Of a stretch of 64,000 nucleotides of DNA, positions 13,447 to 53,825 are shown piece by piece. The position numbers were made by a program, and so were the translations under genes. The notes beneath the pieces are model-generated. The model was not told the origin of the DNA and searched no databases. It worked only from the letters and a program-made list of their open reading frames with translations. How positions within the stretch are numbered: the first letter of the stretch is position 1; the number at the start of each line of letters is the position of its first letter. This DNA comes from Actinokineospora spheciospongiae (GTDB taxonomy: Bacteria; Actinomycetota; Actinomycetes; Mycobacteriales; Pseudonocardiaceae), in NCBI RefSeq assembly GCF_000564855.1, contig NZ_AYXG01000048.1:1-64000 (forward strand). Direction: 5' to 3'.

Positions 13447-13475
13447 TTGCGTAGTGAGTACTCACTACGTATCAT
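13447..13475 (+). promoter_or_regulatory. Leaderless-type promoter with 18-bp TetR operator
   Basis: GTAGTGAGTACTCACTAC at 13451-13468 is a perfect 18-bp palindrome. It fills the spacer between TTGCGT (13447-13452, -35) and TATCAT (13470-13475, -10; 17 bp spacing). The -10 ends 7 nt before the ATG, implying a leaderless or nearly leaderless transcript. The same palindrome occurs in the same position at 51243-51260. Confidence 0.8.
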
Positions 13476-13482
13476 TGGTGGC

Positions 13483-14115
13483 ATGAGCGGACAGGAAGCA
13501 CCTCGGCAGCGGGCACCTCGGCGCAGCGTCGAGGAGCGCCGCGCCATGGTGGTCGCCGCCGCCATCCCGCTGCTGGCCGAACTCGGGCCATCGGTGACCA
13601 CGTTGCAGATCGCGCGGGCCGCCGGGATCAGCGAGCCCACCGTCTTCCGGGCGTTCACCGACAAGGACGAGTTGCTGGCCGCCTGCCTCGCTCACGTTTC
13701 CGACCCCACCCGGGTCATCGCCGAATTGGCCGCCGTCGACCCCGAACTGCCCCTGCGCGAGCGGTTGGTCGCGGTGATCGACGCCGTTTCGGCCCAGGCT
13801 GCCCTGACCGGGGCCGTGGTGGACGCCGTGCGGCTGGCCGCTCCCCCTCGGGCCCGCAGCACGGACGCCGCGGGGGACGGGGAACGGGCCAGGGCCACCG
13901 CCGGGCGGGACTCCGCCCGCGCCCGGTTGCACGCCGCCGTGGTCGCCGTGCTGGAGAGCGACGCCGGGGCGCTGCGGACCTCGGTCGGAGAGGTGGCGAC
14001 CGTGGTGCTCACCATCGTGACCGCCCTGGGGACCGGGGCCAGGTGGAGCGGCGACGACGACGGGTTGACCGCGGGCGCGCTCGCCGACCTCGTGTTGAAC
14101 GGCGTCGCACTGTAG
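13483..14115 (+). CDS. TetR-family repressor (left exporter module)
   Basis: Encodes 210 residues from the ATG just after the palindromic operator. The N-terminal TetR domain has RRSVEERRAMVVAAAIPLLAELG followed by a clean helix-turn-helix, VTTLQIARAAGISEPTVFRAFTDKDELLAACL. The remaining helical ligand domain is Ala-rich and diverse. It is followed after 42 nt by an MFS transporter gene, the usual drug-export repressor arrangement. An identical operator precedes the second TetR-MFS module at 51.2 kb, so cross-regulation by a common ligand, perhaps the cluster product, is likely. Confidence 0.9.
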   Translation: MSGQEAPRQRAPRRSVEERRAMVVAAAIPLLAELGPSVTTLQIARAAGISEPTVFRAFTDKDELLAACLAHVSDPTRVIAELAAVDPELPLRERLVAVIDAVSAQAALTGAVVDAVRLAAPPRARSTDAAGDGERARATAGRDSARARLHAAVVAVLESDAGALRTSVGEVATVVLTIVTALGTGARWSGDDDGLTAGALADLVLNGVAL

Positions 14116-14157
14116 TTCGACCTCGACCCACCACTTGGGAGCGGAAAGGCACCCGCC

Positions 14158-15405
14158 GTGATCAACGCCGCCCGCGTGCCCGCCATCGCCCGCGACCGCC
14201 GGTTCCTCGCCCTGTGGGGTGCCCACAGCATCTCCACCCTCGGGGACGCGCTCACCACCCTCACCCTGATCCTCCTGGTCACCGAGAAGACCCACTCGGT
14301 CGCCGCGATCGGGGGGCTGACCCTGGTCATCGCCGTGCCCGGCATCGTGATCGGGCTGCTGGCCGGGGCCTACGTCGACCGGCACGACCGGCGGCGGATC
14401 ATGATCCTGTCGGACGCGCTGCGGGCGGTGCTGCTGCTGGCGCTCGCCGTCTCGGTCGTGAGCCGGCCCGGGTTGCCCGTGCTCTACCTGATCGCCTTCC
14501 TCCAGGCCGCGGTCGGGACGTTCTTCGAACCGGCCCGGGCCGGGTTGATGCAGGTGATCGTGCCCGCCGAGGAGCAACTGCGGGCGAACTCGCTCATGCA
14601 GACGACCACGGTCATCGGGGAGCTGACCGGGGCGACCGCGGCCGGTGTGCTGGTCGCCACCCTGCACACCCACTGGATCGCCTTCACCGTGGACGCGGCG
14701 ACCTTCGCGGTGTCGGCGCTGCTCATCGCGATGATCCGGCGCACCGACAACACCCCGGCCTGCGAGCCGCAGACGACCTGGGCCGCGATCACCGACGGGT
14801 TGCGCGCGGTGCGCTCCTCCCCCGCGCTGCGCGGGCTGCTGCTGGTGTTCAGCGCGCTCACCTTCGCGCTCAGCCCCATGGCCGTGCTGCTCGCCCCCTA
14901 CGTGGTCGACACGCTGCACATCTCCACCGGCTGGATCGGCGTGATCCAGAGCGGTGACACCGCGGGCAACCTGATCGGGGGTGTACTGGTCCTCGTGCTG
15001 GCCAAGCGGATCAACCCGCGGTTGATGATCATCACCGGGATGGTGCTGCTGGCCGCGCTGATCGCCGCGCTGCCGCTGGCGGCCACCGTGGTGGCGCTGC
15101 TCGTCGCCCACCTCATCTTCGGTCTGCTCACCGTGTCGATCCAGACCGGCATCGGCGCGCTCATCCAGACCGAGGTGGACAACGCGCTGATGGGGCGGTT
15201 CATGGGGCTGATGTCGATCATCCCGAGCACCGTGTCCATCTTCGGCATGGCCTTCGCGGGCAGCTTCGGCGCGCTGCTGGGCATCCAGACCGTCTTCGTC
15301 ACCTGCGGCGCCGTCCTCGCCGTGGGGACCGCTCTGGCCTGGTCGCAGTTCCGGCGGGCCGCCCGGGAGCGGGTGGCGGCGACCGCGGAACCCGCCGTGC
15401 CATGA
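14158..15405 (+). CDS. MFS transporter (MFS_3 type)
   Basis: Encodes 415 residues from a GTG preceded by GGAAAGG. It has about 12 hydrophobic helices and the MFS signature loop between helices 2 and 3 (GAYVDRHDRRRIMILSDALRAVL). The N-terminal FLALWGAHSISTLGDALTTLTLILLVTE resembles the MFS_3/EntS exporter group. It sits in the plasma membrane and probably exports a small molecule by proton antiport. It is cotranscribed with the TetR repressor. A rho-independent-type hairpin follows at 15414. It is a candidate exporter for the cluster product or for an intermediate. Confidence 0.85.
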   Translation: MINAARVPAIARDRRFLALWGAHSISTLGDALTTLTLILLVTEKTHSVAAIGGLTLVIAVPGIVIGLLAGAYVDRHDRRRIMILSDALRAVLLLALAVSVVSRPGLPVLYLIAFLQAAVGTFFEPARAGLMQVIVPAEEQLRANSLMQTTTVIGELTGATAAGVLVATLHTHWIAFTVDAATFAVSALLIAMIRRTDNTPACEPQTTWAAITDGLRAVRSSPALRGLLLVFSALTFALSPMAVLLAPYVVDTLHISTGWIGVIQSGDTAGNLIGGVLVLVLAKRINPRLMIITGMVLLAALIAALPLAATVVALLVAHLIFGLLTVSIQTGIGALIQTEVDNALMGRFMGLMSIIPSTVSIFGMAFAGSFGALLGIQTVFVTCGAVLAVGTALAWSQFRRAARERVAATAEPAVP

Positions 15406-15413
15406 GACCGGTG

Positions 15414-15450
15414 CCGGTGGTCCGCCCGACGGGAGCGGGCGGACCACCGG
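15414..15450. terminator. Perfect 15-bp stem between convergent genes
   Basis: CCGGTGGTCCGCCCG (15414-15428) pairs without mismatch with 15436-15450 across a 7-nt loop. It lies between the convergent MFS gene (ends 15405) and radical SAM gene (ends 15487), so it can stop transcription from both sides. There is no U-tract, as is common in actinomycetes. Confidence 0.75.
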
Positions 15451-15486: not shown

Positions 15487-17382
15487 TCACATCAGGGCCG
15501 GGTTGGCCAGCGGGCGGGCGACCGCCATGTAGTGCGCGGCCGTCTCGTGGTTGTCGAGGTGGTCGTGGAAACCGCAGCGGGCCTGGAAGGTGTAGCTGAC
15601 CCGCTCCGGCCGCGGCGGCGACATCAGACAGTCCGACCAGGCGCGGATGGCCGCCTCCACGTCGACGCCGAACTCGACCGGCTCGCTCACGTAGAACCAC
15701 TCCCCGTCGACCAGCTCGGTGTACCAGCCGGTGGGCGGCTCATCCCCCGGCTTGACGTACACCGGGCGGCACCAGCGCTCGTAGCGGTACAGCTCCCTGG
15801 CGAAGGGGCGCCACTCCGGCGGGAACTCCGGCACCATCGACTGTTCCCACCACTGCCCCACCACCGCCTCCAGCTCCGGTGTGCCGTGCAGCGCGCGCAG
15901 CGCGGCCGCGATGGCCGGGGACTCGGCGAAAACCGGCATCCGCTCGACCAACCCCACCGCCGCGGAGGTCCGGTCCTCCTCGAAGGCCCGCATCAGGCTG
16001 GTGACCACCTGCGACTGGGTCAGTCCGGTGACGTCGCGCAGCGGTTGCCAGGTGTGGCGCAGGTACTGGTTCTCCCCCAGCACCCTGGCCCAGTACATGA
16101 ACCGCTGCATCTCCAGGTTCTCCGGCACCGTGGAGGTCCGGTTGGCCAGTACGTACTCGAAGTCGTCCGACTCACCGCGGATGGTGACGAAGCCGTGCAC
16201 CCCCCGGTTCTCGGTGTAGGAGGTGTTGGGCAGCAACAGCATCGGGTACACAGCGATGCGCGAAACCATGGTGGCGAGGCGGTCGTAGCCGCGCAGGAAC
16301 GAGTTCGGCGTCTCCCCCGGCGCCCCCCAGATCAGCTCCGCGTAGCAGTCGAGTCCCTCCTCGTTGAGCCAGGTGACCAGGCCCTCCCACTGGTTCACCT
16401 TCATGTTCTTGCGCAGCATGCCGGTGAGCGCGTCGTCGGAAAGCGTCTGCAGGGCGAGGGTGAACGAGCTCTTGAAGTCGTGCTTCTTGAGCGCGCGGAC
16501 GATGTCGTAGAAGCGGTTGGACTTGTTCTTGGCCCAGCTCGTCTCCAGTGCCCGGGGGAACCCGTACCGCTCTCGGGTCTTGATCAGCATCTCGACGAAC
16601 TGCTCGTCGGCCTCCAGCAGGCCGAAGTTGGAGTCGCAGAGCACGATCGAGGGAACCTGGTGGAAGCCGAACATGTCCAGCTCGTGGGCCAGGCGGTCGG
16701 TGGAGAACGAGCGCATCTTCTGCCCCACCGCCCCGCCCCAGTAGCAGAACGAGCACTTGTAGGGGCAGCCGCGGTTGGTCTCCATCAGCGCCACGTCGTA
16801 GGGGAAGTGTCCCGCCGCGTTGGTCATCGGGATGGCACCGGTGAGGAACGGCGACGGCACGGTGTCGAGGTCGCCGATGCGCTCGCGCTCGGCCGTGGTG
16901 TGCACCGAGCCGTCCGGGCGCCGCACCGACAGGCCCGCCACCGCGGTGCCCGCGAGCTCCCCCGGGTGCTCGTGCAGGTCGCGCACCAGCTCGGCGAAGG
17001 TGGTCTCGCCCTCGCCGTTGATCACGACGTCGACCCAGGGGAACTCGCGGAACACCCGCTCGGCCTGGTAGGCGACGTGGTTGCCGCCGAACAGGACCGT
17101 GCCGCGCGGGTTGACCTGCTTGAACGTTTCGGCGAGCATGCCGAAGTTGCGGTAGTTCCAACCCAGCACGGAGAAGCCGATGACGTCGGGGACCCGGTCG
17201 CGGAACAGTTCCCTGGTCATCTCCGGCAGTGGGACCCCGCCGCGGAAGTTGCGGATCTCGACCTCGGTGGCCACGGCCAGGTCGGGGTCGGCGGCGATCA
17301 CCGCCTTGAGGTAGCCCGCCGCCAGCGGCATGGAGTCCACCGGCATGTCCCAGGCGCCCTGCTGTACGAGGCAGATGTGCAT
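15487..17382 (-). CDS. B12-binding-domain radical SAM enzyme
   Basis: Encodes 631 residues. The N-terminal cobalamin-binding-like Rossmann region (about 1-150: MHICLVQQGAWDMPVDSMPLAAGYL opening, IGFSVLGWNYRNF, VLFGGNHVAYQ) lacks the DxHxxG base-off motif. The radical SAM core follows with Cys206, Cys210 and Cys213 in the CxxxCxxC cluster motif (GCPYKCSFCYWGG), then the GAPGETPNSF segment. A long C-terminal region (about 420-631) has no recognised motif. Class B relatives methylate unactivated carbon or rearrange rings. It is the last gene of a six-gene minus-strand operon of polyketide genes. C-methylation of the polyketide or its starter is plausible but unproven, and such enzymes are uncommon in type II clusters. 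Confidence 0.85.
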   Translation of the reverse strand: MHICLVQQGAWDMPVDSMPLAAGYLKAVIAADPDLAVATEVEIRNFRGGVPLPEMTRELFRDRVPDVIGFSVLGWNYRNFGMLAETFKQVNPRGTVLFGGNHVAYQAERVFREFPWVDVVINGEGETTFAELVRDLHEHPGELAGTAVAGLSVRRPDGSVHTTAERERIGDLDTVPSPFLTGAIPMTNAAGHFPYDVALMETNRGCPYKCSFCYWGGAVGQKMRSFSTDRLAHELDMFGFHQVPSIVLCDSNFGLLEADEQFVEMLIKTRERYGFPRALETSWAKNKSNRFYDIVRALKKHDFKSSFTLALQTLSDDALTGMLRKNMKVNQWEGLVTWLNEEGLDCYAELIWGAPGETPNSFLRGYDRLATMVSRIAVYPMLLLPNTSYTENRGVHGFVTIRGESDDFEYVLANRTSTVPENLEMQRFMYWARVLGENQYLRHTWQPLRDVTGLTQSQVVTSLMRAFEEDRTSAAVGLVERMPVFAESPAIAAALRALHGTPELEAVVGQWWEQSMVPEFPPEWRPFARELYRYERWCRPVYVKPGDEPPTGWYTELVDGEWFYVSEPVEFGVDVEAAIRAWSDCLMSPPRPERVSYTFQARCGFHDHLDNHETAAHYMAVARPLANPALM

Positions 17383-17403: not shown

Positions 17404-19041
17404 TCAGGCGGGGAGGTCGAGCAGGTGGGTGAGCACCTCGCGCAGCACCCGGTCGGGGTCCCGCGCGGGCCCGGGCGAGCGCCAGGCGACGACGTTGTCC
17501 GGGCGCACCAGCAGCGCGCCGCCCGGCCCCAGCCCGGCGGTGGCCAGCCAGGTCCGGTCCTCGGCGACCAGGTCGGCGTCCCCGCCGGTGCCGACCCGGT
17601 GGGCGGTCAGCGACACGCCGCGCACGGCGTCCTCCGCGGCCCGGCACCAGTCGTGCCCGTCCGGGCCGGTCAGCAGCACGAAGCCGGGGCCCGCCAGGTC
17701 CAGGGTGGACACGCGCTCGCCCTTGAGCTCCACCCAGCCGTGCGGCAGCCGGGAGCCGGGGTGCCCGTCGAGATCGAGGGCCACGTCCTCCAGCGACGGC
17801 ACCTCGCCGCGGGCGCCGATGACCGCGCGGGAGTCGTACTGGTAGCCGAAGCCCAGCACGAGCGGATCGGCGATGCGCAGGGCGGCGCGGGCCTTCTCCA
17901 CCTCGGGCCCGGTGGACCACTGCAGGTGCAGGTTGCGGAACCGCAAGAGGGTCTGCTCCTGGGCGAAGCGGGCCACCGGCAGCCGTTCGGCCTCGTAGCT
18001 GTCCAGCAGCCCCCGGCCCGCCTCGCCACGCACGACCATGGCCAGTTTCCAGGCCAGGTTGTGCCCGTCGGAGATGCCGGTGCTCAACCCGAACGCGCCG
18101 ATCGGCGGGATGGTGTGCGCGGCGTCTCCCACCAGGAACACCCGACCCGAGCACGTGCTCTCCGCGACCCGGGAGGACATCTGCCAGGTGAGCCTGCCGA
18201 GGATCTCCACGTCGAGGTCGGGGATGCCGACCGCGGCGCGGACGAGGTCGCGGCACCGCTGCGGCGGGTAGTCCTCCAGGGTCTCGCCCTCGTCCTCCAC
18301 GGTGACGTGGAAGACCCAGCGGTCGGTGTTGTTGACCGCGACCAGGATGCCCTCGAAGCCGTCGCCCTTGACCTCGCAGAAGGCGAACTCCCGCCCACGC
18401 ACCAGGTCGGCGAGGTCGGCCTGGAACAGCATGTTGACCATCGGGTTGGTCAGGTCGTCCTCGCCGGTGGTGGCGATGCCGAGCAGGTCGCGGACCGTGC
18501 TGCGGGCCCCGTCGGCGGCGATGAGGTAGTCCGCGCGCACGGTCCTGGTGCGCTCGCCGTCGCGGTCGGCCAGGGTCACGGTGACACCGTCGTCGTCCTG
18601 GGCGAAGCCGACCAACTCGGTGTTGAAGTGGACCGCGACCCCGCCGTCGACGGCCGCGTCCAGCAGCACCCGGTCGATCTGGTCCTGCGCGCACGGCCCG
18701 CCTCTGGTGGGGCTGATCCGGTTGGTCACCTCGATCAGGCCCGGCGGCGGGGTGGGGTAGCGCTCCACCGTGGACAGGTCGTCGGTCAGCGCGGTGACGT
18801 TGATCTTGGAGGTGCTCGGCACCAGGGCGGCGCTGGCCCGGGTGATCTGCTCCTCCAAACCCACGGCGCGGAAGAACTCGCGGGCGGGCGGCTGCACGCC
18901 GGTCGCCCGCGGGTGGATCGACAACCCGCCGCGGCGCTCGACCACCACGGCCGGGACGCCGTGGCGCACGAGCGCCACCGCGCAGGACAGGCCGACGGTG
19001 CTGCCGCCGACGATCAGGACAGGGACACGCTCTTCGGACAC
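17404..19041 (-). CDS. Aromatic polyketide flavin hydroxylase (RdmE/DnrF type)
   Basis: Encodes 545 residues from a GTG preceded by GGGGGAGAG. The FAD-binding motif is [17 protein letters not shown] (GxSxxG variant common in this group), DG motif [18 protein letters not shown] motif [24 protein letters not shown]. The C-terminal 150 residues form a thioredoxin-like domain ([13 protein letters not shown]) as in 530-550 residue anthracycline/angucycline hydroxylases. It likely adds oxygen to the polycyclic aglycone with NADPH and O2. Its closest relative in the window is the hydroxylase at 44062-45708; the two share motifs and length throughout and look like paralogues with different positions of attack. 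Confidence 0.9.
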
Positions 19042-19079: not shown

Positions 19080-20150
19080 TCACCGGCGCACGGCCTCGAC
19101 CACGCTCGACGACGCCACGCCGGACCACGCGGGCCGGATGGGCAGGATGCGCTGCAACTCGAAGCCCGCCGCCTTGACCAGGGCGGCGAAGTCCACCCTG
19201 GACCGCTCCTTGGCGCCGGTGTTCAGCAGCATGTTGACGTCGCTGCGGGCGGCGATCTGCGACGGGATCGAGCTGTCGAACTGCGCCGGGTACAGCGTCT
19301 CGACGATCAGCAGCTTCGCGCCGGGGCGCATGGCCGCGTGGCAGTTGACGAGGATTTCGACGCTGCGCTGATCGCTCCAGTCGTGCAGGACGTTGTTGAG
19401 CAGGTAGGCGTCGCCGCCCTCGGGCACCGACTCGAAGAAGTCGCCGGTCACCAGGTCGCAGCGGGAGAGCACGTCGGAGTCGGCCAGCCGGGCGCGGGCG
19501 TGCTCGACCATGTAGGGCAGCTCGAAGAGCACCCCCTTGAGCTTGGGGTTGGCCGCCAGGATCGCCGAGAGCAGGATGCCCCGACCGGCGCCGACCTCGA
19601 CCAGGGTGCCGAACTGGGTGAAGTCGTAGGTGCTCACGACCGCGTCGGCGGTGTAGGTGACGAAGAAGGTCATCGCCCTGCCGAGGATCTCCAGCATGTG
19701 CTCGGGCATCTGCGCGAACGGGTTGGCGTGCTTCTCCTTCTCCATCACCGAGCGGCCGTTGCGCACGCAGTCCTCCAGCTCACCCCACCGGTGCTGGTGG
19801 TGCGGACTGGCCATCATCAGCGCGAACGGGTGCAGCGAATCCGGTACGTCGGTGCGCAGGTGCCTGCCCTTGGCGGTGAGGGTGAACCTGGTCTGCTCCG
19901 GCTCGACCAGCACGCCCGCGCTGACGAGCAGGCGCAGCAGCCGCAGCAGCGCGTCCGGGTTGGCGCCGGTGTGCCCGGCCAACTCCTCGTGCGTGGCCGC
20001 CCCGTCACCGATCAGGTCGGCGATCCCCAGCTTGGCCGCGACGTGCACGGCGCTGGACTCGTGGTGCGCGGTGATCGTCCGGAACAGGTCGACCGCGGAG
20101 GTCGGCCCCGGCGCGACGGCCTGTTCAGCCCGATCTTCTGTCGTAGTCAC
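19080..20150 (-). CDS. SAM O-methyltransferase (DnrK/TcmO fold)
   Basis: Encodes 356 residues from a GTG. The N-terminal dimerisation/winged-helix region ([42 protein letters not shown]) precedes the SAM domain. That domain carries [19 protein letters not shown] and the NNVLHDWSD motif whose His is the usual catalytic base of plant-type O-methyltransferases. It probably methylates a phenol or carboxyl of the aglycone. It lies inside the minus-strand operon but has its own upstream SARP-box triplet at 20204-20232 and a good AGGAG, so it may start a separate transcript with the hydroxylase and radical SAM gene. Confidence 0.9.
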
Positions 20151-20235: not shown

Positions 20236-20850
20236 TCAGACCGAGGTCACCACCTGCTCGTAGGCCAGCCGCGGCAGTCGTTCGCGCCAGGCGTCGGGGC
20301 CGGGCCTGCCGATGTTGACCACGGCGAGCACCCGGTGCCGACCGTCCGGGAAGAACTCCCGGTTGATCCCGTCGGCGTCGAACCCGCTCATCGGCCCGGC
20401 GGCCAGGCCGACCGCGCGGACGCCGAGGATGAAGTAGCCGACCTGGATGCCCGCGTTGAACTCCGCGGTCCGATCGCGCACCGCCTGGTCGGCGAACAGC
20501 GCGCCCACCCACGGCGCGTTCGGGAACACCACCGGCAGGTGCTCGTCGAACCCGTGGTCGGCGGCCAGGACCGCGACGAGGGGCGCGCGGCTGGTCTTGT
20601 CCTTGTTGCCGGGCATGAGCTGGTCGACCAACCGCTGCCTGGCTTCGGGCGTGCGGACCAGCACCACCCGCAGCGGTTGCACGTTCATGGAGGTCGGTCC
20701 CCACTTGACCAGCTCGTGGATCGCGCGGACCTGCTCGTCACCGACGGGCTCGTCGGTGAAGGTGCTGGCGGTGCGGGCGGCGCGGAACAGCAGGTCACCT
20801 GCCGCGCCGTCGAGCACCGCGTGCCCCGTGTCGTCCTGCGGATTCGTCAT
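20236..20850 (-). CDS. Nitroreductase-family flavoprotein (RutE-like)
   Basis: Encodes 204 residues. Family features are the early FRAARTASTFTDEPVGDEQVRAIHELVKWGPTSMNVQPLRVVLV segment, with the substrate-loop Arg and the SMNxQP flavin contact, and the late PMSGFDADGINREFFPDG stretch typical of the malonic semialdehyde reductase/RutE branch. It binds FMN and uses NAD(P)H to reduce nitro, quinone or enone groups. It is the third gene of the minus-strand operon behind AT and a hydroxylase. Reduction of a polyketide quinone or enone, or recycling flavin, is more likely than pyrimidine catabolism here. Confidence 0.87.
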   Translation of the reverse strand: MTNPQDDTGHAVLDGAAGDLLFRAARTASTFTDEPVGDEQVRAIHELVKWGPTSMNVQPLRVVLVRTPEARQRLVDQLMPGNKDKTSRAPLVAVLAADHGFDEHLPVVFPNAPWVGALFADQAVRDRTAEFNAGIQVGYFILGVRAVGLAAGPMSGFDADGINREFFPDGRHRVLAVVNIGRPGPDAWRERLPRLAYEQVVTSV

Positions 20851-46087: not shown

Positions 46088-46855
46088 TCAGGCGGAGCGG
46101 CGCCAGTAGACGCCGAACTTGTCGACGGTGACTATCTCGTCGGTGATGCCGTTGGCGTCGCGGTAGTCGTGCACGGCGTCCGCGCAGGCGCGCAGGCCGT
46201 AGTCGTCGATGATGGCGTAACCGCCGACCGAGAGCTTCGGGTAGAGGTTCTCCAGGACCGCGGTCGTCGACTCGTAGAGGTCACCGTCGAGGCGCAGGAC
46301 GGCGATCCGCTCGACCGGGGCCTCCGGCATCGTGTCCTTGAACCAGCCGGGGAGGAACTTCACCGCCTCGTCCAGCAGGCCGTAGCGGCGGAAATTCTCC
46401 TGGACCTGCTCCATCGGGATGCCCAGGACGTCGTTGTACTCGTGCATGCGCATCTTGCGGTCCCTCGGCTTGCTGTCCTCGCCGACCTCGGGCATGCCCT
46501 GGAACGAGTCGGCGACCCAGACCGCGCGGTCGTCCACGCCGTGGACCTTGAGGATGCCCCGCATGAAGATGCAGACGCCGCCGCGCCACACGCCGGTCTC
46601 GATGAGGTCGCCGGGGATGCCGTCGGCGATGACCCGCTCGACGCAGTCCTGCACGTTCTGCAGGCGCTTGAGGCCGACCATGGTGTGCGCGACCGTCGGC
46701 CAGTCCTCGCCGCGGGAGCGCAGTTCGGCGTTGTACGGGCCGTGCGGCGCGGCGCCCGGCCCCGCCGGGAGCCGGGGGTTCGAGCTGTCCTGGTACACCG
46801 TGTTCGTCAGCGTCCGCTTGAGCAGGTCGAGGTAGAGGTGGGTGGGGTTGTCCAT
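46088..46855 (-). CDS. TylF/MycF/SpnH-like sugar O-methyltransferase
   Basis: Encodes 255 residues from an ATG with GGAAGGA. SAM-binding region LIETGVWRGGVCIFMRGIL, VWVADSFQGMPEVGED, and the metal-binding acidic pairs in LRLDGDLYES and YAIIDDYG match the Mg-dependent macrocin O-methyltransferase family. Members methylate one hydroxyl of a 6-deoxyhexose already attached to an aglycone. Third gene after two MycE-like genes in the same operon, the same two-large-one-small set as spinosyn SpnI/SpnK/SpnH. Confidence 0.92.
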   Translation of the reverse strand: MDNPTHLYLDLLKRTLTNTVYQDSSNPRLPAGPGAAPHGPYNAELRSRGEDWPTVAHTMVGLKRLQNVQDCVERVIADGIPGDLIETGVWRGGVCIFMRGILKVHGVDDRAVWVADSFQGMPEVGEDSKPRDRKMRMHEYNDVLGIPMEQVQENFRRYGLLDEAVKFLPGWFKDTMPEAPVERIAVLRLDGDLYESTTAVLENLYPKLSVGGYAIIDDYGLRACADAVHDYRDANGITDEIVTVDKFGVYWRRSA

Positions 46856-46886: not shown

Positions 46887-48047
46887 TCACCAGGTGGGCG
46901 TGCGGGGAATCCAATCGGGGATGCCGCCTTCGCGGTTGACGCCCTTCTCCAGGAAAGCGATGTTGTGGTGGGCGTAGACGCCGGTGAGCGACTCGGCCAC
47001 CGAACCCGCCGCGCCGGGACCGGTCCACTCCTCGTGGTGCAGGGCGTCGAGGAGGGTCTTGAGCAGGCCGATCGAGGTGCCCGGCCCGGCGACCGGGCCC
47101 GCGGTGCCGCCGTAGTCGGGCAGGTACGCCGTCCACAGGTCCTCGATGACGTAGAACCCGCCCGGACGCACGTGCGGGAACAGCGCCGCGAAGGTGGTGA
47201 GGATGTGGTCGTTCTTGTGGCTGCCGTCGTCGATGATGATGTCGAACGGGCCGTTGCGCTCGACCACCTCCGACAGCAGCGCCCGGTCGGACTGATCGCC
47301 GATGACGGTGGTGATCCGCAGCTCGTCGAGGCCGTTCTTGTCGAACAGGTCCATCCCGTACACGGTGCCGCGGCGGAAGTAGTGCTTCCACACCTTCAGT
47401 GACGCGCCGCCCTCATCGGGGTCCTGGTAGCCGCCGATGCCGATCTCCAGCAGCCGCACGGGTTCGTCGCGGAACCGGCTGAAGTGTTCCTCGTAGCGCC
47501 GGGCGAACCAGTGCAGCCCGCCCCACTTGTCCGAGCCGCACCGCGCCATCAGCTCGCCGAGGTCGGCCCGGCCCGGCTCGGTGCCAGCCAGCAGGGCGTC
47601 GACCGCCTTCGGTGTCTCCTCCACCAGCTCGATCCGGGGGACCCCGGACCCGTCGAGGGCCTTGCCGTAGAGCGGGACCGTGCGGCGGGCGGTGTGGGCG
47701 TGGCCGCTGTAGCGGCCGTAGAGGGCGCGAGCGAATTGGTGGACGTCGTACTCCACGCGCAGCCCGACCCGATCCGCGGTCGAGCCGGGCGCCACCTCGA
47801 TCGGGCGGCCGTCGACCACGGTGCACAGGAAGCTCGCCCGCTCGTCGCCGGACACGACGTCGAGCCCCACCGGCACCGGATGGGTGTTGCCGGGTCTGCG
47901 CGCGCGGAAGACCAACTCCTCGACCAGCAGGCGGGCGGTCTCGGCCAGGGGCAGTTCGGCCACGACCGCCCGCAGGCGCTCGTCGTCGTCCGCGGCCCGG
48001 ATCAGCCGCTCCAGAAACGCGGTGGCGCGTGGTGCTGCTACGTGCAT
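46887..48047 (-). CDS. MycE/SpnI/SpnK-like sugar O-methyltransferase (copy 1)
   Basis: Encodes 386 residues from the ATG at 48047; the frame is open far upstream but without coding character. An N-terminal helical domain (about 1-160) precedes a SAM domain with LLEIGIGGYQDPDEGGASLKVWKHYF and the metal-binding FDIIIDDGSHKNDH, as in mycinamicin MycE (399 residues). It probably methylates a specific hydroxyl of the attached deoxysugar. Thirty nt downstream of its paralogue at 48077. Confidence 0.92.
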   Translation of the reverse strand: MHVAAPRATAFLERLIRAADDDERLRAVVAELPLAETARLLVEELVFRARRPGNTHPVPVGLDVVSGDERASFLCTVVDGRPIEVAPGSTADRVGLRVEYDVHQFARALYGRYSGHAHTARRTVPLYGKALDGSGVPRIELVEETPKAVDALLAGTEPGRADLGELMARCGSDKWGGLHWFARRYEEHFSRFRDEPVRLLEIGIGGYQDPDEGGASLKVWKHYFRRGTVYGMDLFDKNGLDELRITTVIGDQSDRALLSEVVERNGPFDIIIDDGSHKNDHILTTFAALFPHVRPGGFYVIEDLWTAYLPDYGGTAGPVAGPGTSIGLLKTLLDALHHEEWTGPGAAGSVAESLTGVYAHHNIAFLEKGVNREGGIPDWIPRTPTW

Positions 48048-48076: not shown

Positions 48077-49267
48077 TCACGACCGGGTGGCCCTGGCCGC
48101 GCGGAGCATGTCGGCAACGGGGCTGCCCGCCGCGTTGGACCCCTTCTCGACCACGGCCACGTTCGGGTACAGGTGCAGGCCGATGACCTGTGTGTCCGTC
48201 GGCAGCGGCGCGCGGGCGCCGGGGCGCAGGAATTCCTCGTGGTGCAGTCCGTCCACCAGGGTCTTGAGGAAGCCGACGGTGAACCGCGGGTCGCCGAGGT
48301 CGGTGTCGTCGCCGTGGAACACCTCGGGCCAGTACGCGGTGTGCAGGTCCTCGATGACGTAGAGCCCGGTGGGGCGCAGGTGGGGGAACAGGGTGTGGAA
48401 CGTGGAGATGACGTGCGAGCTGACGTGGCTGCCGTCGTCGATGACGATGTCGAAGGGACCGTGCCGCTCGGCGAACTCCAACAGCTCCTCCGGTTTGGAC
48501 TGGTCGGCCACGGTGGTGCTCAGCCGGGGGCCGTCGAGCGGGCTCTTGTCGGCGATGTCGATGCCGTGCACCAGCGCCCGGGGGAAGAAGTGCTTCCACA
48601 TGTGCAGCGACGTGCCGCCCCGGCGAGGGTCCTCGTAGCCGCCGATGCCGATCTCCAGGATCGTCAGCCGGTGCTCGCGCAGCGGGGCGAAGTGCCGTTC
48701 GTAGTGCGGGGTGTACTGGTGCAGCGCACCCCACTTGTCGGTGCCGCAGCGCACGGCCAGCTCGCCGAGGTCCGCCGCACCGCGCCGGTCGAGGACCTGC
48801 ACCACGCGCTGCACCACCCAGTAGTAGAACGGAGGGGGCACCTCGCGGTCGGGTGAGGGCACCACGAACCGGTGCCCTGGCCAGCGGATGGCGCGGGTGG
48901 CGGCGGTGACCAGCTCGCGCGGCCCGTACAGTGCGCGCGCCACCTCCACGAGGTCTTGGGCGATGACCGCCGGGGGCGGCGCGGTGCCGGGGGTGTGCCC
49001 GTCGCGGACCTCGATCCCACCGGGACCCACGCACACCGTGGTGGCCAGCTCGCGGCCGCGGTGGGCGAGGGCGAGCACGACCGACACCGCCTCCCCGGCG
49101 CGGACACCGGTGTCGCCGAGCCTGGCGCGGAAGACGACCTCCTCGACCAGCACCCGCGCGGTGCGCTCCACCCCCAACCCGTCGATCGCGGCGGTGACGT
49201 CGCCATCGGCTGATGCGGTCGCGGCGAGCAGGTCCCGGATGAGGTCGGTCGCCTCCGTGGCAAGCAT
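48077..49267 (-). CDS. MycE/SpnI/SpnK-like sugar O-methyltransferase (copy 2)
   Basis: Encodes 396 residues from the ATG at 49267; upstream sequence carries its SARP boxes, so a longer reading is unlikely. Same domain order as its neighbour, with ILEIGIGGYEDPRRGGTSLHMWKHFF and FDIVIDDGSHVSSH. It is clearly a paralogue but diverged across the N-terminal domain, as expected for different positions on the sugar. First gene of the three-gene sugar methylation operon and divergent from the glycosyltransferase-like gene. Confidence 0.92.
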   Translation of the reverse strand: MLATEATDLIRDLLAATASADGDVTAAIDGLGVERTARVLVEEVVFRARLGDTGVRAGEAVSVVLALAHRGRELATTVCVGPGGIEVRDGHTPGTAPPPAVIAQDLVEVARALYGPRELVTAATRAIRWPGHRFVVPSPDREVPPPFYYWVVQRVVQVLDRRGAADLGELAVRCGTDKWGALHQYTPHYERHFAPLREHRLTILEIGIGGYEDPRRGGTSLHMWKHFFPRALVHGIDIADKSPLDGPRLSTTVADQSKPEELLEFAERHGPFDIVIDDGSHVSSHVISTFHTLFPHLRPTGLYVIEDLHTAYWPEVFHGDDTDLGDPRFTVGFLKTLVDGLHHEEFLRPGARAPLPTDTQVIGLHLYPNVAVVEKGSNAAGSPVADMLRAARATRS

Positions 49268-49300
49268 GGCGCCGAGGCTGTCCCCCGGCGCTGGACCGCA

Positions 49301-49318
49301 GCTCGACCCGCGCTCGAA
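49301..49318 (-). promoter_or_regulatory. SARP-box pair before the sugar methylation operon
   Basis: On the minus strand TTCGAGC (49318-49312) and GTCGAGC (49307-49301) start 11 bp apart and end 34 nt before the ATG at 49267. Confidence 0.7.
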
Positions 49319-49327
49319 CCGGGGCGG

Positions 49328-49345
49328 GTCGAGCGCGGGTCGAGC
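49328..49345 (+). promoter_or_regulatory. SARP-box pair before the glycosyltransferase-like gene
   Basis: GTCGAGC at 49328-49334 and again at 49339-49345 are identical heptamers, 11 bp apart, and the flanking bases also repeat (GGTCGAGCGCG twice). They end 43 nt before the ATG at 49389. This is the cleanest SARP site pair in the window. Confidence 0.75.
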
Positions 49346-49388
49346 GCGGCGGGCCACGCTCGTGTCCTGACCCACGGGAGGACCCGAG

Positions 49389-50672
49389 ATGAAGGTGCTC
49401 GTCTTCGCGCTGTCCACAGTGGCCTACGGGGACACCCTCGTCGGCATCGGGCTGACCAACCAGCTGCGCGCCGCGGGGGTGCGCAGCCACTACGTCATCA
49501 CCGCCTCGTCGGAGAACCTGTTGCGCCACCACGGTTATCCCCACACCGTCCTCGACCCCGCCGGGGGGCAAGATGTGCGCGCGGAGGTCGACGCGGTGGT
49601 CCGGCGGTTCCGACCGGACGCCATCGTGCTGGCCGACTACCTCAACCACTGGGGGACGCTGATCCGCCAGTTCGACACCGACCCGTGGTTCATCGACGAC
49701 TACCGGCTGCCGGTGCTGCCCATCGACATCTGGGAGTGGGAGAACACCGCGTTCCGCTTCGACGTCTGCGGCAGGCGCCACGAGCGCGAGGTGAGCAGGC
49801 GCATCCTGGACATGCCCGCGCACCTGCGGCCGGTGCCGGTGTGCCACCTGGACCCGGGCCCAGCCGGGTACGGCCACCCGTACCGGGTGCTGCCGCCGGA
49901 GCCCGCGCTGACCGCGGCGCGGCGGCGGGAGGTGCGCGCGGCCCTCGGCGTCGGTGAGCGGCACCGCCTGGTCATGCTGCCGATGGCGGCCTGGCAGCAC
50001 CAGCGCGGGGACCGACCCGGGATGACCGAGATGGTGGGCAGGCTGGGCAGGCGGGTGCCCGAGCTGCTCGCCGACTACCTGCGGCGGCTGCCGAGCGACG
50101 CGCACCTGCTGTTCATCGGGGGCAACGTGCCTGAGCCGTTCCTGGCGCTGCCCGCCGAGCGGGTGCACCTGCTGCCGCTGTGCGCCCCGGACCGCTACGA
50201 CGAGCTGCTGGCGTCGGTGGACGCCGTGCTCTCCTTGACCACCACGGGGTTGACGGTGTCCAGGGCGATCCTGGCCGACACACCCGCGATGCTGCTCACC
50301 AACCGCTTCACCGTGCCCGACACCGCCGCGGTGGACACCGTGGAGTCCGAACTGGGTGGTATGGACCCCGTGGTGCGCCGGTGGTTGCTCGACACCGCGC
50401 CCGTCGAGCCGTTCCGGATGTGGCCCAAGGGCCAGCACGCGTTCCTGGAGCCGCTGCTCAAGGACAACCCACACCTCGACGCCCTGGTGCACCGGGAGCT
50501 GTTCGACGGCGGGGGCGTGGTGGCGGCGTTGACGGCGCTGTTGTTCGACCCGGGGACCCGCGACGACCTGGCCGCGCGGCGCGCGGGGTACGCGGCCGCC
50601 GTGGCGGCGCTGCCCCCGACCGAGGAGGTCTTCGCGGCGGCGGCCGGGCGGGCGGCACTGGCGGTGCGGTGA
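49389..50672 (+). CDS. Atypical GT-B-like putative glycosyltransferase
   Basis: Encodes 427 residues with GGGAGG upstream. The layout suggests a GT-B glycosyltransferase: N-terminal Rossmann start MKVLVFALSTVAYGDTLVGIGLTNQLRAAG, VDAVVRRFRPDAIVLADYL, then a second half with HLLFIGGNVPEPFLALPAERVHLLPLCAPDRYDELLASVDAVLSLTTTGLTVSRAILADTPAMLL, like the donor-binding domain. It lacks the GT1 HCGxxT/donor motif of ordinary antibiotic glycosyltransferases. It may belong to the family catalogued as DUF6365; I could not check. It is the only glycosyltransferase candidate in the cluster and is divergent from three sugar methyltransferases, which supports attachment of the sugar they modify. Confidence 0.7.
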   Translation: MKVLVFALSTVAYGDTLVGIGLTNQLRAAGVRSHYVITASSENLLRHHGYPHTVLDPAGGQDVRAEVDAVVRRFRPDAIVLADYLNHWGTLIRQFDTDPWFIDDYRLPVLPIDIWEWENTAFRFDVCGRRHEREVSRRILDMPAHLRPVPVCHLDPGPAGYGHPYRVLPPEPALTAARRREVRAALGVGERHRLVMLPMAAWQHQRGDRPGMTEMVGRLGRRVPELLADYLRRLPSDAHLLFIGGNVPEPFLALPAERVHLLPLCAPDRYDELLASVDAVLSLTTTGLTVSRAILADTPAMLLTNRFTVPDTAAVDTVESELGGMDPVVRRWLLDTAPVEPFRMWPKGQHAFLEPLLKDNPHLDALVHRELFDGGGVVAALTALLFDPGTRDDLAARRAGYAAAVAALPPTEEVFAAAAGRAALAVR

Positions 50673-50745: not shown

Positions 50746-51207
50746 ATGACCGAGCCACAGAACGACGAGCGACCACCGAGCCCGGGCGACTTCCTCTGCC
50801 GGGTGCACGCCGACCTGCGCCGATCGCTGGCGATCATCCGCGGGCAGTTCGACGACGCGGCGGCCGACCCGGTGCCGCGCCCGGAGCTGCGCGCCGGGCT
50901 CACCACGGGGTGCCTGCAGATGTGCGACCTGCTCACTCGCCACCACCTGCACGAGGACGACGACTTCGGGCGGCTGGAGGCCTACTTCCCGCAGCTGGCC
51001 CCGGCGATCCGGCGGCTGCGCGCCGAGCACGAAGACGTCGCCGGGGCGCTGGCCGACCTGCGGGCGCTGCTGGCCCGGTTCGAGGTGGGTGAGGTGGGCG
51101 CCGACCGCATCCGCGACGACGTGGTGCGGTTGACCACGGCCCTGCAGGCGCACTTCGACTACGAGGAGGCGCAGCTGGTCCCGGTGCTGAACGCGGCGGC
51201 CACCTGA
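50746..51207 (+). CDS. Hemerythrin-like HHE-domain protein
   Basis: Encodes 153 residues from the ATG at 50746 after GGAGGA. The four-helix iron-binding pattern is visible: an early FLCRVHADLRRSL, then LLTRHHLHEDDDFGRLEAYFP, LRAEHEDVAGAL and LQAHFDYEEAQLVPVL. These His and Glu/Asp residues are spaced as in diiron hemerythrins. Such proteins bind or sense O2 or nitric oxide. It lies 73 nt after the glycosyltransferase-like gene on the same strand and may be cotranscribed. A supporting role for the many oxygenases is speculative. Confidence 0.82.
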   Translation: MTEPQNDERPPSPGDFLCRVHADLRRSLAIIRGQFDDAAADPVPRPELRAGLTTGCLQMCDLLTRHHLHEDDDFGRLEAYFPQLAPAIRRLRAEHEDVAGALADLRALLARFEVGEVGADRIRDDVVRLTTALQAHFDYEEAQLVPVLNAAAT

Positions 51208-51267: not shown

Positions 51268-51273
51268 GTCGAC

Positions 51274-51876
51274 ATGACCGCACCTTCCCCCGCCGAGCCC
51301 CCGACCGCCGAACCGCACCGCGAGCAGCTCGTGTGGGCCGCGCTCCCGCTGCTCCTCGCGCACGGCCAGGACACCACCCCGGCGCAGGTCGCCCACGCGG
51401 CGGGCGTCGCGGAGGACGTCGTCACCCGCACCTTCCCCGACGCCGAATCCCTGCGCACCGCCTGCCTGGCGATCGCGCTGCGCGGCGAGGACACCCGGGC
51501 CCACCTCGCGGCGGTCGACCCCGGCCTGCCGCTGGTGGACCGGCTCACCATGGCCGCCGAGGCGATCACCGACCACGCCACCCGGGTGGGAGCTCTCACC
51601 GGGGCACCCACCCGGGTCGACCACACCCACCAAGCCGACCAAGCCTCCCCTGATCAAGCCCCCACCGATCAGGCAGACCCCGCCGACCGGACTGCGGCGC
51701 CGGGCGAACTCGTCGCCCTGTTCGAGTCCGACCGCGCCGCGCTGCGGACACCGCCGGAACGGTTGGCCCCGCTCTTCCAGGCCCTCGCGGTGGCCGCCGG
51801 GCAACTCGGGCGGTCACCGGGGGAGCTGGTGGACCTGTTCCTGCACGGCGCACTCACCCCCGGTCAGGAGGACTGA
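51274..51876 (+). CDS. TetR-family repressor (right exporter module)
   Basis: Encodes 200 residues. N-terminal TetR domain with REQLVWAALPLLLAHGQ and a somewhat degenerate helix-turn-helix, TTPAQVAHAAGVAEDVVTRTFPDAESLRTACL, shared in outline with the repressor at 13483. A low-complexity linker rich in Asp, Gln, Ala and Thr (around residues 110-140) interrupts the ligand domain. Its stop overlaps the MFS start (TGATG). Shares an identical operator with the left module, so either repressor could act on both. Confidence 0.88.
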   Translation: MTAPSPAEPPTAEPHREQLVWAALPLLLAHGQDTTPAQVAHAAGVAEDVVTRTFPDAESLRTACLAIALRGEDTRAHLAAVDPGLPLVDRLTMAAEAITDHATRVGALTGAPTRVDHTHQADQASPDQAPTDQADPADRTAAPGELVALFESDRAALRTPPERLAPLFQALAVAAGQLGRSPGELVDLFLHGALTPGQED

Positions 51877-53402
51877 TGTCACCGAACGAGGCACCACCCG
51901 AGGACGAGCCGGAGACCCGCCACCCCACCGTGGTGATGTGGGCACTGCTGGTGTGCGCCTTCCTGGCCATGCTGGACGGCTCGGTCATCGTCACCATCCT
52001 GCCCAAGATCGTCGACCAGGTCGGCGGCTCCGACTCCTGGTACCTGTGGTTGGTCACCGCCTACCTGCTGGCATCGTCGATCAGCGTGCCGATCTACGGT
52101 CGGTTCTCCGACCTCTACGGCCGCAGGCGGTTGCTGCTGCTGGGCTTGGGCCTGTTCCTGGTCGGCTCGCTGGCCTGCGGCTTCGCGGGCTCGATGGCGT
52201 TCCTGATCGCCGCGCGCACGGTGCAGGGCCTCGGCGCGGGCGCGCTGCTGACGCTGAGCATGGCGGCCATCCGCGAGGTCTTCCCGACCGGCAAGTCCAC
52301 CGTGCTGCTGCGCATCCAGTCGATCATCGCGGCGCTGATGCTGATCGGCATGGTCGGCGGCCCGCTGCTCGGCGGCGTGCTGGCCGACGGGATCGGCTGG
52401 CGCTGGGCCTTCTTCATCAACCTGCCCTTCGCGGGTGCGGCCTTCGTCGCACTGACCCTGCTCTACCCGCGCATCCGCCAGGCGCGAACAGTGACGGGCC
52501 GACTTGACGTCGCGGGCATCGCACTGCTGAGCACCGGCCTGTCCCTGGTCCTCATCGGACTCAGCCTCAAGGGCCAGAGCACCGGCGGCCGGACGCTGGA
52601 GTGGACCGATCCGGTGGTGGCCGGGTGCCTGGTGCTCGGTGCACTGCTGCTGGCGGCCCTGGTTCCGGTCGAGCGCCGGGCGGGCACCCCGATCCTGCCG
52701 CTGTACCTGCTGCGCGGGCGCAGCTTCTCCGCCCTGCTGGTCGGCGGGTTCTTCTTCCAGCTCGCCGTGATGCCGATCGGCATCATCGTCCCGCTCTACT
52801 TCCAGCACGTGCGCGGCTACTCGGCCAGCACGTCCGCCTTCTTGGTGCTGCCGCTGCTGGTGGGCATGGCGCTGAGCAGCAGGCTGACCGCGCTGGTCAT
52901 CCTGGGGACCGGCCGCACCAAACCGGTGCTGCTGGCCGGGGCGGCCCTGCTGACCACCGGCTCCGCGGCCTTCGCCTTCCTCGACGGGGGCACATCCCCG
53001 TGGCTGACCAGCGTCTGGCTGCTGCTGGCGGGCGTGGGCACCGGCCCGGCCATGGGCGGGCTGACCATCGCCACGCAGAACTCCGTGCCCCGCTCCGACA
53101 TGGGCACCGGCACGGCGGGCGCCACCCTCACCAAGCAGCTCGGCGGCGTCCTGGGCCTCACCCTGGCGCAGTCGCTGGCCAACCACTACACCCACAACAG
53201 CGCGATCAACACCGAGGCCGCGAGCTCCACCATCCTGTGGATCAGCGGCACCGCGGGCCTGCTCGCCGTCGCCTCGATCGCGATGATGCACGACGTCTTC
53301 GTCGAACGCCCCGGCAAACCCCTGCCGGGCACCCCCGCCGCGGCCGCGACCCCCACCGCCCCGGAGGCGGCCTCCGCCCCGATCGGCTCGGCCGAGAAGT
53401 AG
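51876..53402 (+). CDS. DHA2-type MFS drug exporter
   Basis: Encodes 508 residues with 14 predicted hydrophobic helices. Motif C-like opening FLAMLDGSVIVTILPKIV (the LD-x-TVVNVALP region), loop motif A GRFSDLYGRRRLLLLG, and DHA2-type MFLxxRxxSxxxLxGGF-like segment YLLRGRSFSALLVGGFFFQLAVMPIGIIVPLYFQHVRG. Such 14-helix antiporters export polyketides and dyes. Translationally coupled to the TetR gene and followed by a VOC protein; the three form a typical export-resistance operon at the right edge of the cluster. Confidence 0.92.
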   Translation: MSPNEAPPEDEPETRHPTVVMWALLVCAFLAMLDGSVIVTILPKIVDQVGGSDSWYLWLVTAYLLASSISVPIYGRFSDLYGRRRLLLLGLGLFLVGSLACGFAGSMAFLIAARTVQGLGAGALLTLSMAAIREVFPTGKSTVLLRIQSIIAALMLIGMVGGPLLGGVLADGIGWRWAFFINLPFAGAAFVALTLLYPRIRQARTVTGRLDVAGIALLSTGLSLVLIGLSLKGQSTGGRTLEWTDPVVAGCLVLGALLLAALVPVERRAGTPILPLYLLRGRSFSALLVGGFFFQLAVMPIGIIVPLYFQHVRGYSASTSAFLVLPLLVGMALSSRLTALVILGTGRTKPVLLAGAALLTTGSAAFAFLDGGTSPWLTSVWLLLAGVGTGPAMGGLTIATQNSVPRSDMGTGTAGATLTKQLGGVLGLTLAQSLANHYTHNSAINTEAASSTILWISGTAGLLAVASIAMMHDVFVERPGKPLPGTPAAAATPTAPEAASAPIGSAEK

Positions 53403-53417
53403 GAAGAAGGCACCGAC

Positions 53418-53825
53418 ATGACCGCGACCGAGAACGACACCGTCGCCGCCCAACCAGACGCGGCCGAGGGCAAGGTCGTCTTCTGGCACCTGCGCACGAC
53501 CGACATCACCCGGGCGAAGGCCTTCTACGAGGGCCTGTTCGGCTGGGCCTTCCAGGAGATCAACCCCCTCACCTACGCCGTGCAGGCGGGCGGCGGCCTG
53601 ATGGGCTGCCTGGTGGAGACCGACGAGAAACCAGGCCCGGTGGCGAGCAGCGTCCTCTACACCCACGTCGGCGACCTGCCCGGCAAGCTCGAGCGGGCCC
53701 TGGAGCTGGGCGCGGAGGTGGTCACCGAACCGCTGAACGTCTACGGCACCAAGGCCTTCGCCGACCTGCGCGACCCCACGGGCACGGTGTTCGGGCTGTG
53801 GACGGAGACCTTCAAGGCGAGCTGA
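53418..53825 (+). CDS. VOC-superfamily (glyoxalase/bleomycin-resistance fold) protein
   Basis: Encodes 135 residues. A single pair of beta-alpha-beta-beta-beta modules: VVFWHLRTTDITRAKAFYEGLFGWAFQEI, then GDLPGKLERALELGAEVVTEPLNVYGTKAFADLRDPTGTVFGLW with the typical DPTG-x-xF-x-LW ending. Members bind metal or sequester antibiotics. Cotranscribed with the exporter (15 nt), so a drug-binding resistance role is plausible. A terminator hairpin follows. Confidence 0.88.
   Translation: MTATENDTVAAQPDAAEGKVVFWHLRTTDITRAKAFYEGLFGWAFQEINPLTYAVQAGGGLMGCLVETDEKPGPVASSVLYTHVGDLPGKLERALELGAEVVTEPLNVYGTKAFADLRDPTGTVFGLWTETFKAS

Follow-up and report, generated by a model that had tools for sequence, protein, structure and literature searches.

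A type II polyketide gene cluster of Actinokineospora spheciospongiae whose core is reminiscent of mithramycin ring closure combined with priming of the daunorubicin type

Which polyketide pathway is encoded on contig NZ_AYXG01000048.1 of Actinokineospora spheciospongiae (assembly GCF_000564855.1), and how unusual is it? The window analysed here was the first 64,000 nucleotides of this contig, within which a type II polyketide synthase (PKS) cluster of about 35 genes (g16-g50) occupies about 13.5-53.8 kb (Table 1). A preliminary description had suggested that the region combined parts rarely found together and encoded a heavily oxidised, glycosylated, DNA-binding aromatic polyketide that was probably undescribed. 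Genes were called with a simple codon-usage caller that gave approximate start positions, protein families were assigned with Pfam and NCBIfam models, and catalytic residues were checked in the translations. The window has a GC content of 0.73 and the host genome is 7.5 Mb. With moderate confidence, the region was read as a horizontally variable type II PKS cluster for a ketoreduced aromatic polyketide that starts from propionyl or another short acyl unit and is assembled in the reaction order set out below. Judged by its protein families, the core looks like a union of two textbook logics in one cluster, priming of the daunorubicin type and a mithramycin-like closure of the rings.

The minimal PKS was present as first described, with the ketosynthase KS-alpha (g38), chain length factor (CLF; g39) and acyl carrier protein (ACP; g40) in tandem and carrying the expected Cys, Gln and Ser residues, respectively. 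The ketosynthase III (KSIII) homologue with Ser in place of Cys (g41; Ser113-His292-Asp297) and the discrete acyltransferase (AT; g23; GHSVG) were also found, and together they make up a DpsC-like priming module. The g41 protein aligned with the daunorubicin PKS protein DpsC (PDB 4xs7) over residues 6-342 of 344, and g23 was 59% identical to its counterpart in the S. coeruleorubidus locus (L027). The Ser-His-Asp triad of DpsC and its role in priming are described in the available part of a published report (PMC12664062). By this analogy, g41, assisted by g23, would load the starter onto g40, and g38 and g39 would extend it.

The KS-alpha and CLF proteins were placed in a quick tree of 85 rows that was built, without bootstrap, from tblastn stretches. 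The window fell in a seven-row clade (Shimodaira-Hasegawa approximate likelihood ratio test support of 99) with loci L010, L025, L027, L088 and L016 and genome G104. The L010, L025, L027 (S. coeruleorubidus) and L088 (S. ruber) loci each have KSIII and AT genes beside the PKS. Within the clade the window paired with L016 (support of 89) and not with G104, and two forks had support values of only 36 and 9. The closest KS-alpha protein was 74% identical among the 80 loci listed in a scan for type II PKS loci (at least 80 loci, not exhaustive) and 75% identical in a survey of 373 genomes of the class, in which the first two to five candidates per genome were scored and counts are lower bounds. 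No near-identical match was therefore found, in agreement with the preliminary description.

Ring formation was examined by comparison with mithramycin. The ligase g31 and the small putative cyclase g34 lie beside the aromatase g32 and the MtmY-type cyclase g29. According to the available part of the mithramycin source, the four rings are formed in sequence by MtmQ, by MtmY and lastly by MtmL together with MtmX; mtmOIII (99 amino acids, "Monooxygenase") is listed adjacent to mtmL (PMC7247220). From its size and name we infer that MtmOIII is an ABM protein. ABM domains act as monooxygenases and/or chaperone-like helpers and are also found fused to polyketide cyclases, as stated in the part of the source available (PMC6689052). 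Like the window, the mithramycin cluster has an aromatase, an MtmY-type cyclase, an acyl-CoA ligase, a 150-amino-acid putative cyclase and an aldo/keto reductase; in contrast, its pathway is acetate-primed, its ligase is unfused (514 amino acids), and the available part of its 34-gene table lists no KSIII, AT or radical SAM gene (PMC7247220). In the window the ligase-ABM fusion (g31) and the SnoaL-like protein (g34, Pfam SnoaL_4) were both confirmed. The C-terminus of g31 reads as two ABM-like halves, of which Pfam reports one, and g34 adjoins the ligase-aromatase-ketoreductase block in the window and in genomes G104 and G164. In the proposed order, the ketoreductase g33 and aromatase g32 would fix the first ring and g29 would make rings two and three. 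The ligase half of g31 would then adenylate a free carboxyl group and, with g34, close the fourth ring in the manner of MtmL and MtmX, while the fused ABM half may oxygenate or hold the same intermediate.

To what extent these parts are found together elsewhere was assessed from the class survey and from stretches around g31 matches. Matches to g31 (E 1e-100) were found in at least 8 of the 373 genomes, and each of the eight shared its contig with a type II KS-alpha match; five of them extended into the ABM part, to at least residue 621. Four of the eight g31 contigs, that of the host included, also carried a DpsC-like KSIII match (E 1e-70), two of these being only 44-45% identical. Among 15 genomes behind chosen loci, seven had a g31 match at E 1e-90. 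The block of g29-g33 with g34 (cyclase, flavoenzyme, ligase-ABM, aromatase, ketoreductase and SnoaL_4 protein) recurred, not always complete, in S. rimosus NRRL WC-3904 (two), S. montanisoli, Streptomyces sp. SM10, Streptomyces sp. HmicA12, Kitasatospora CB01950, a Streptosporangiaceae metagenome-assembled genome (MAG) and G164. Selection through g31 accounts for the occurrence of that gene in these stretches, but not for the genes that accompany it. In seven such core clusters (SM10, HmicA12, the two of WC-3904, S. montanisoli, CB01950 and G164) the KS-alpha, CLF, ACP, aromatase, ligase, MtmY-like cyclase (61-68% identical to g29, compared with 80% in G104), SnoaL_4 protein and ketoreductase were present as in the window, the ketoreductase at only 30% in HmicA12. 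The ligase match ran into the ABM part in all except CB01950, g30 was matched in six of the seven and g22 in five, and SM10, HmicA12, CB01950 and G164 also had a DpsC-like KSIII and an AT. Within the stretches fetched, KedN5, g27, DUF6365 and the sugar O-methyltransferases were all unmatched. The aldo/keto reductase g26 was 54-61% identical to proteins of HmicA12, SM10 and G104. The two core clusters of S. rimosus NRRL WC-3904 are separate (L177; L179/L180), each with its own g31 match.

A related and largely collinear cluster was found in G104, of the same class (contig C20, about 16.9-71.3 kb), with the KS-alpha (75%) and KedN5 genes about 11 kb apart. Its counterparts of g24-g35 had the same order (61-80%), with one extra short-chain dehydrogenase/reductase gene between g30 and g31. 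They were followed by g42, g40-g38, g37, two g20-like and two g19-like genes, g18, two DUF6365 genes, an AT, an exporter and g22; the g27-type aromatase and fused g31 were also present. In contrast to the window, a FabH-like KSIII with Cys, E1 alpha and beta proteins and a second ACP replace the DpsC-like KSIII, and dTDP-deoxyaminosugar genes with an EryCIII-type glycosyltransferase are present, with no sugar O-methyltransferase match. The G104 contig gave no match at E 1e-5 to g41, g43-g45, g17, g21, g47, g50 or g52. The comparison indicates a common chassis around which starter and sugar sets have been exchanged.

The idea of parts rarely found together thus stood only in part. The core recurs, four times with KSIII and AT, and a gene set unique to the window was rejected, since much of the rest, save the priming and sugar genes, is found in G104. 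What is unusual, going by family assignments, is the layer consisting of the KedN5-type enzyme, second aromatase type, DUF6365 protein and three sugar O-methyltransferases. The two didomain aromatases, g27 and g32, were confirmed, and this pair occurred only in the window and G104 among 89 loci listed plus the window; four of the 89 had two g32-like copies and one had a weak (25%) g27-like match. These 89 loci comprised the 80 of the scan, mostly with flanks of 10 kb or less, and nine fetched later, mostly re-fetches or extensions, so a second aromatase copy beyond the flanks would escape notice.

The borders of the cluster were examined against a genus sample of 16 genomes, the host and 15 congeners. 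In congener G004 the flanks g11-g14 and g54-g57 are separated by one gene (531 amino acids) without a match in the window, compared with about 45 kb between g14 and g54 in the window. The cluster therefore has the character of an insertion, with g14 and g54 on either side, and this empty site, like the gene content, the catalytic residues and the recurrence, was observed directly. In congener G011, which had no type II KS-alpha match at E 1e-100, counterparts of g51 (MerR regulator, 54637-55320; 60-64%) and g52 (UvrA-like ATPase, 55449-57689; 79%) directly precede g54-g57. The g52 gene lies beyond the end of the cluster, was unmatched at E 1e-5 on the G104 contig, which spans 119.5 kb, and belongs to a family matched in all 16 genus genomes. 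Since G011 has its counterpart at the corresponding chromosomal position despite having no KS-alpha match at E 1e-100, g52 is best read as part of a variable chromosomal flank and not of the cluster. DrrC-type self-resistance, as a cluster-linked gene that is absent without the cluster, was accordingly rejected for g52. The DNA-binding product proposed in the preliminary description had leaned on this gene and is not supported; a UvrA-like gene beside a cluster is by itself no evidence of such a product.

Oxidation of the aglycone would involve the five flavin hydroxylases (g19, g22, g25, g30 and g42) and the P450 g35, all of which were confirmed, the last with its heme Cys. A role for g35 as a heme-less glycosyltransferase activator was rejected, since the heme Cys is present and the TIGR04515 score was 160 bits compared with a cut-off of 343. 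The P450 gene has a lower GC content at third codon positions (GC3), 0.87. The two proteins of the DnrK fold, g20 and g24, both have SAM motifs.

KedN5 is the B12 radical SAM enzyme of kedarcidin biosynthesis. The assignment of g18 to this family, in line with the B12-type radical SAM enzyme noted earlier, was supported by a score above the NF033712 cut-off and a CxxxCxxC motif (CPYKCSFC); its G104 homologue was 72-73% identical. KedN5-like proteins (E 1e-90) were found in at least 6 of the 373 class genomes, two of which, the host and G104, had them on a contig with a KS-alpha match. These two genomes (at least 2 of the 373) were also those in which KedN5 and DUF6365 shared a type II KS-alpha contig. 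A further case among the scan loci listed is L016, a Micromonosporaceae MAG in which a KedN5 homologue (50%) and a type II KS-alpha gene are separated by about 6.5 kb; no ligase-ABM match was found in its 21 kb. In the window g18, g19 and g20 lie side by side, and in G104, too, the homologues of these genes neighbour one another. In the cystobactamid pathway, an oxygenase (CysC), an O-methyltransferase (CysF) and a B12 radical SAM enzyme (CysS) act in turn to make aryl ethoxy-to-butoxy ethers, according to the available part of the source (PMC12846815). The window has genes of the same three kinds next to one another, but the cystobactamid substrate is a para-aminobenzoate and not a type II aglycone. 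By analogy, g19 would hydroxylate, g20 would O-methylate and g18 would C-methylate, and the resulting alkyl ether would exceed methoxy in size; alternatively, g18 may install another sp3 C-methyl group. The g18 enzyme is thus a candidate for radical C-methylation with a type II aglycone as the substrate.

The glycosylation genes comprise three sugar O-methyltransferases (g43-g45), confirmed at family level only, and the DUF6365 protein g46. DUF6365 matches were found in at least 7 of the 373 class genomes at E 0.001 and were over the model cut-off in at least four, each of these four having a type II KS-alpha gene no more than about 13 kb away. There was no match in the 15 congeners at E 1e-10 or, by sequence, among solved structures at E 1, and no description of the family was found in the open-licence literature. 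Selected open reading frames (ORFs) were scanned in the neighbourhoods of DUF6365 in G104, G283, G386 and L042, and each neighbourhood had one or more genes of deoxysugar type (a dehydratase, a DegT aminotransferase or a sugar transferase) adjoining DUF6365 or close to it. When an AlphaFold2 model was compared using Foldseek, 49 of the 50 matches listed were glycosyltransferases, including CalG1, GtfD, LanGT2 and SnogD, and one was a UDP-GlcNAc 2-epimerase. This weak fold evidence suggests that DUF6365 may be a GT-B glycosyltransferase. The atypical glycosyltransferase of the preliminary description corresponds to this DUF6365 protein, its GT-B fold being tentative. DUF6365 genes also adjoin type II PKS genes in L042, L055, L192 and L193/L194, and deoxysugar-type genes are near those of L042, L192 and L194. 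No NDP-sugar synthesis genes were recognised among the cluster genes; one RmlC-family gene was found elsewhere in the host genome, on a 19.8 kb contig. The putative glycosyltransferase g46 would transfer a deoxysugar made elsewhere in the genome, and g43-g45 would O-methylate it. The choice of sugar is guided by the TylF and MycE families, so rhamnose is only a first guess. In Nocardia tenerifensis (L058), a MycE-like sugar O-methyltransferase 44% identical to g44 lies a few genes from a PKS core. A testable function is gained for DUF6365, sugar transfer in aromatic polyketide pathways.

A more specific reading, which we consider possible but rather doubtful, is that the product is a tetracyclic polyketide with a branched alkyl ether from the hydroxylase-O-methyltransferase-KedN5 cassette, glycosylated by DUF6365, and that it forms an undescribed family with that of G104. 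In the same tentative vein, the ether would be ethoxy, isopropoxy or larger, the priming and sugar sets would have been swapped while the chassis stayed fixed, and DUF6365 could, somewhat speculatively, be a GT-B family tied to type II polyketide clusters with no described function. Several points weigh against the main reading. Every reaction, the starter, the sugar and the ring system are what we infer from the genes. The correspondence of g31, g34 and g29 to MtmL, MtmX and MtmY is one of family, size and gene order. The ketoreductase and DpsC-like priming distinguish the cluster from mithramycin, and ring closure of the anthracycline type would be equally within the reach of a SnoaL-fold protein. 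Both mtmOI and mtmOIII are reported as dispensable in the available part of the source (PMC7247220), so the ABM half of g31 may matter little. The g18 protein scored higher to TokK (2e-57, 198 bits) than to CysS (1.6e-45, 159 bits) among PDB matches, which makes an alkyl ether one option among several. The DUF6365 model, built from three sequences, was poor (predicted local distance difference test score of 50.4), and its matches, with E values down to 8.5e-09, had template modelling scores of 0.2-0.3. The 19.8 kb RmlC contig had no homologue of the G104 RmlA or RmlB, the search covering this contig only.

An anthracycline proper, made by aklavinone logic, would use DpsC/DpsD priming, an ABM anthrone oxygenase and SnoaL-type aldol closure of the fourth ring, keeping the ketoreductase, aromatase and DpsY-type cyclase and leaving another role for the ligase part of g31. 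It would explain why the KSIII, AT and KS-alpha/CLF proteins are closest to or group with those of daunorubicin-type loci, and why g19 and g42 are RdmE-like, although both scored under the cut-off of the RdmE model (443 bits for g19, cut-off 700). Priming of the daunorubicin type shares with the window a Ser-His-Asp KSIII (4xs7) with an AT and the KS/CLF clade. However, the ligase-ABM, KedN5, DUF6365 and sugar O-methyltransferase genes were unmatched in the 21 kb S. coeruleorubidus locus, and that genome had no g31 match at E 1e-90. At that threshold g31 was unmatched in all five genomes, this one included, behind the KSIII and AT loci L010, L025, L027, L088 and L057. SnoaL/AknH/DnrD-type cyclases belong to Pfam SnoaL, while g34 matched SnoaL_4 only. 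Furthermore, the window, G104 and G164 agree in gene order, with the ligase inside the cyclase-aromatase-ketoreductase block; as these clusters were partly selected by g31, finding the gene in them is no independent evidence. An anthracycline proper was therefore considered unlikely.

Less probable still is an angucycline, or another polyketide of angular or linear type, for which g22 and g25 would open or hydroxylate rings and g31 would activate an exogenous acid for attachment. Both hydroxylases belong to the PgaE/OxyS/rifampin monooxygenase superfamily, and many of the scan loci listed share g32, g33 and g25 at about 40-70%. However, in a tree without G104 and G164 the KS-alpha and CLF lay outside the large group that holds the locus of S. 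globisporus 1912, a landomycin producer, g29 and g34 fit tetracyclic logic, and no aryl-acid supply genes were recognised among the called genes. A decayed or silent cluster is very improbable: nothing specific points to it, the P450 GC3 hinting only at recent acquisition, and catalytic residues were present where checked, with the core enzymes matching family models over most of their length. The cluster is real and apparently intact, and the short-acyl-primed, ketoreduced polyketide with mithramycin-like ring closure remained our preferred reading.

In agreement with the preliminary description, families and motifs are consistent with one cluster for a heavily oxidised, glycosylated aromatic polyketide. 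No described cluster with these gene combinations was found in the open-licence literature. The persiamycin, coelulatin (with a HemN-like radical SAM enzyme), ruskamycin and frankiamicin clusters, compared by description in the parts of the sources available, had nothing matching the gene set. The product is probably undescribed.

Table 1. Genes of the cluster, with predicted products and the evidence for each (model matches with E values or bit scores, motifs, and identities to related clusters).
Gene	Predicted product	Position	Strand	Evidence
g16	TetR-family regulator	13546..14115	+	Pfam TetR_N 1.3e-10
g17	MFS exporter	14158..15405	+	MFS_1 8e-41
g18	KedN5-family B12 radical SAM C-methyltransferase	15487..17382	-	NF033712 1007.5 bits, cut-off 700
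g19	RdmE-like FAD aromatic hydroxylase	17404..19041	-	FAD_binding_3 1e-85, Rng_hyd_C
g20	Methyltransf_2 (DnrK-fold family) O-methyltransferase	19080..20150	-	SAM motif EVGAGRG
g21	Nitroreductase-family protein	20236..20850	-	PF00881; NF003768 244.6 bits, cut-off 152
g22	FAD monooxygenase, OxyS/MtmOIV/rifampin monooxygenase superfamily	20876..22492	-	Recurs at 50-61%
g23	Discrete acyltransferase, DpsD-like	22505..23557	-	Acyl_transf_1 1e-38; GHSVG
g24	Methyltransf_2 (DnrK-fold family) methyltransferase	23785..24810	+	SAM motif DVGCGHG; 76% in G104
g25	FAD aromatic hydroxylase	24820..26292	+	FAD_binding_3 6e-86; 67% in G104
g26	Aldo/keto reductase, MtmW family, size similar	26494..27459	-	PF00248 1.5e-70
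g27	Second, divergent didomain aromatase/cyclase	27561..28487	+	Polyketide_cyc, two stretches
g28	Gfo/Idh/MocA oxidoreductase	28484..29587	+	65% and same place in G104
g29	Second/third-ring cyclase, MtmY/DpsY-like	29610..30380	-	PF04199 1.3e-33; family, size, place
g30	FAD monooxygenase, PRK06185/UbiH type	30404..31630	-	Recurs at 46-67%
g31	Acyl-CoA ligase fused to ABM domain(s)	31627..33921	-	PF00501 + PF13193 + PF03992
g32	First-ring didomain aromatase/cyclase	33908..34861	-	42-64% in core clusters and G104
g33	Ketoreductase	34873..35721	-	PF00106; up to 75% (L010)
g34	SnoaL_4 protein, candidate MtmX-like fourth-ring cyclase	35881..36324	+	PF13577 3e-17
g35	Cytochrome P450	36335..37498	+	PF00067; heme Cys in HHCLG; 80% in G104
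g37	SARP (BTAD/NB-ARC) activator	38045..39946	+	Family models; 51% in G104
g38	KS-alpha	40229..41500	+	PF00109/PF02801; catalytic Cys in SAGCTSG
g39	Chain length factor	41497..42729	+	Gln for Cys (AEQAGG)
g40	Acyl carrier protein	42726..43001	+	PF00550; DSL Ser in GYDSLA
g41	DpsC-like priming KSIII	42998..44032	+	PDB 4xs7 E 9.8e-151; S113, H292, D297
g42	RdmE-like FAD hydroxylase	44062..45708	+	RdmE model 495 bits, under cut-off 700
g43	TylF-family sugar O-methyltransferase	46088..46855	-	PF05711 3e-103; family level only
g44	MycE-like sugar O-methyltransferase	46887..48047	-	PF17843; PDB 3ssm 1.5e-99, 8ia9 2.1e-93
g45	MycE-like sugar O-methyltransferase	48077..49417	-	PF17843 9e-34
g46	DUF6365, predicted GT-B glycosyltransferase	49389..50672	+	PF19892 532 bits
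g47	Hemerythrin-like protein, membership uncertain	50746..51207	+	PF01814
g48	Probable TetR-like regulator of g49	51331..51876	+	N-terminus reads as TetR-type helix-turn-helix
g49	MFS exporter, DHA2/EmrB type	51876..53402	+	MFS_1 7e-46; 43% in G104
g50	Glyoxalase-fold protein, membership uncertain	53418..53825	+	PF00903 9e-8

Several cluster genes were additional to those first listed, namely the SARP gene g37, ketoreductase g33, cyclase g29, reductase g26, Gfo/Idh gene g28 and nitroreductase g21. The dual exporters that had been reported, g17 and g49, are both of the MFS type and would remove the product, and g37 would activate the cluster genes. The best match to g16 on the G104 contig was a TetR protein (35%), and g48 had no Pfam or NCBIfam match. 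About 550 bases lie between the P450 and SARP genes (37499-38044), where the sole call was a low-scoring ORF of 74 amino acids. Elsewhere, the host genome has two further type II KS-alpha genes (C60:11582-12826 and C147:36875-38119) and 62 ketoacyl-synthase domain matches overall, some of them weak.

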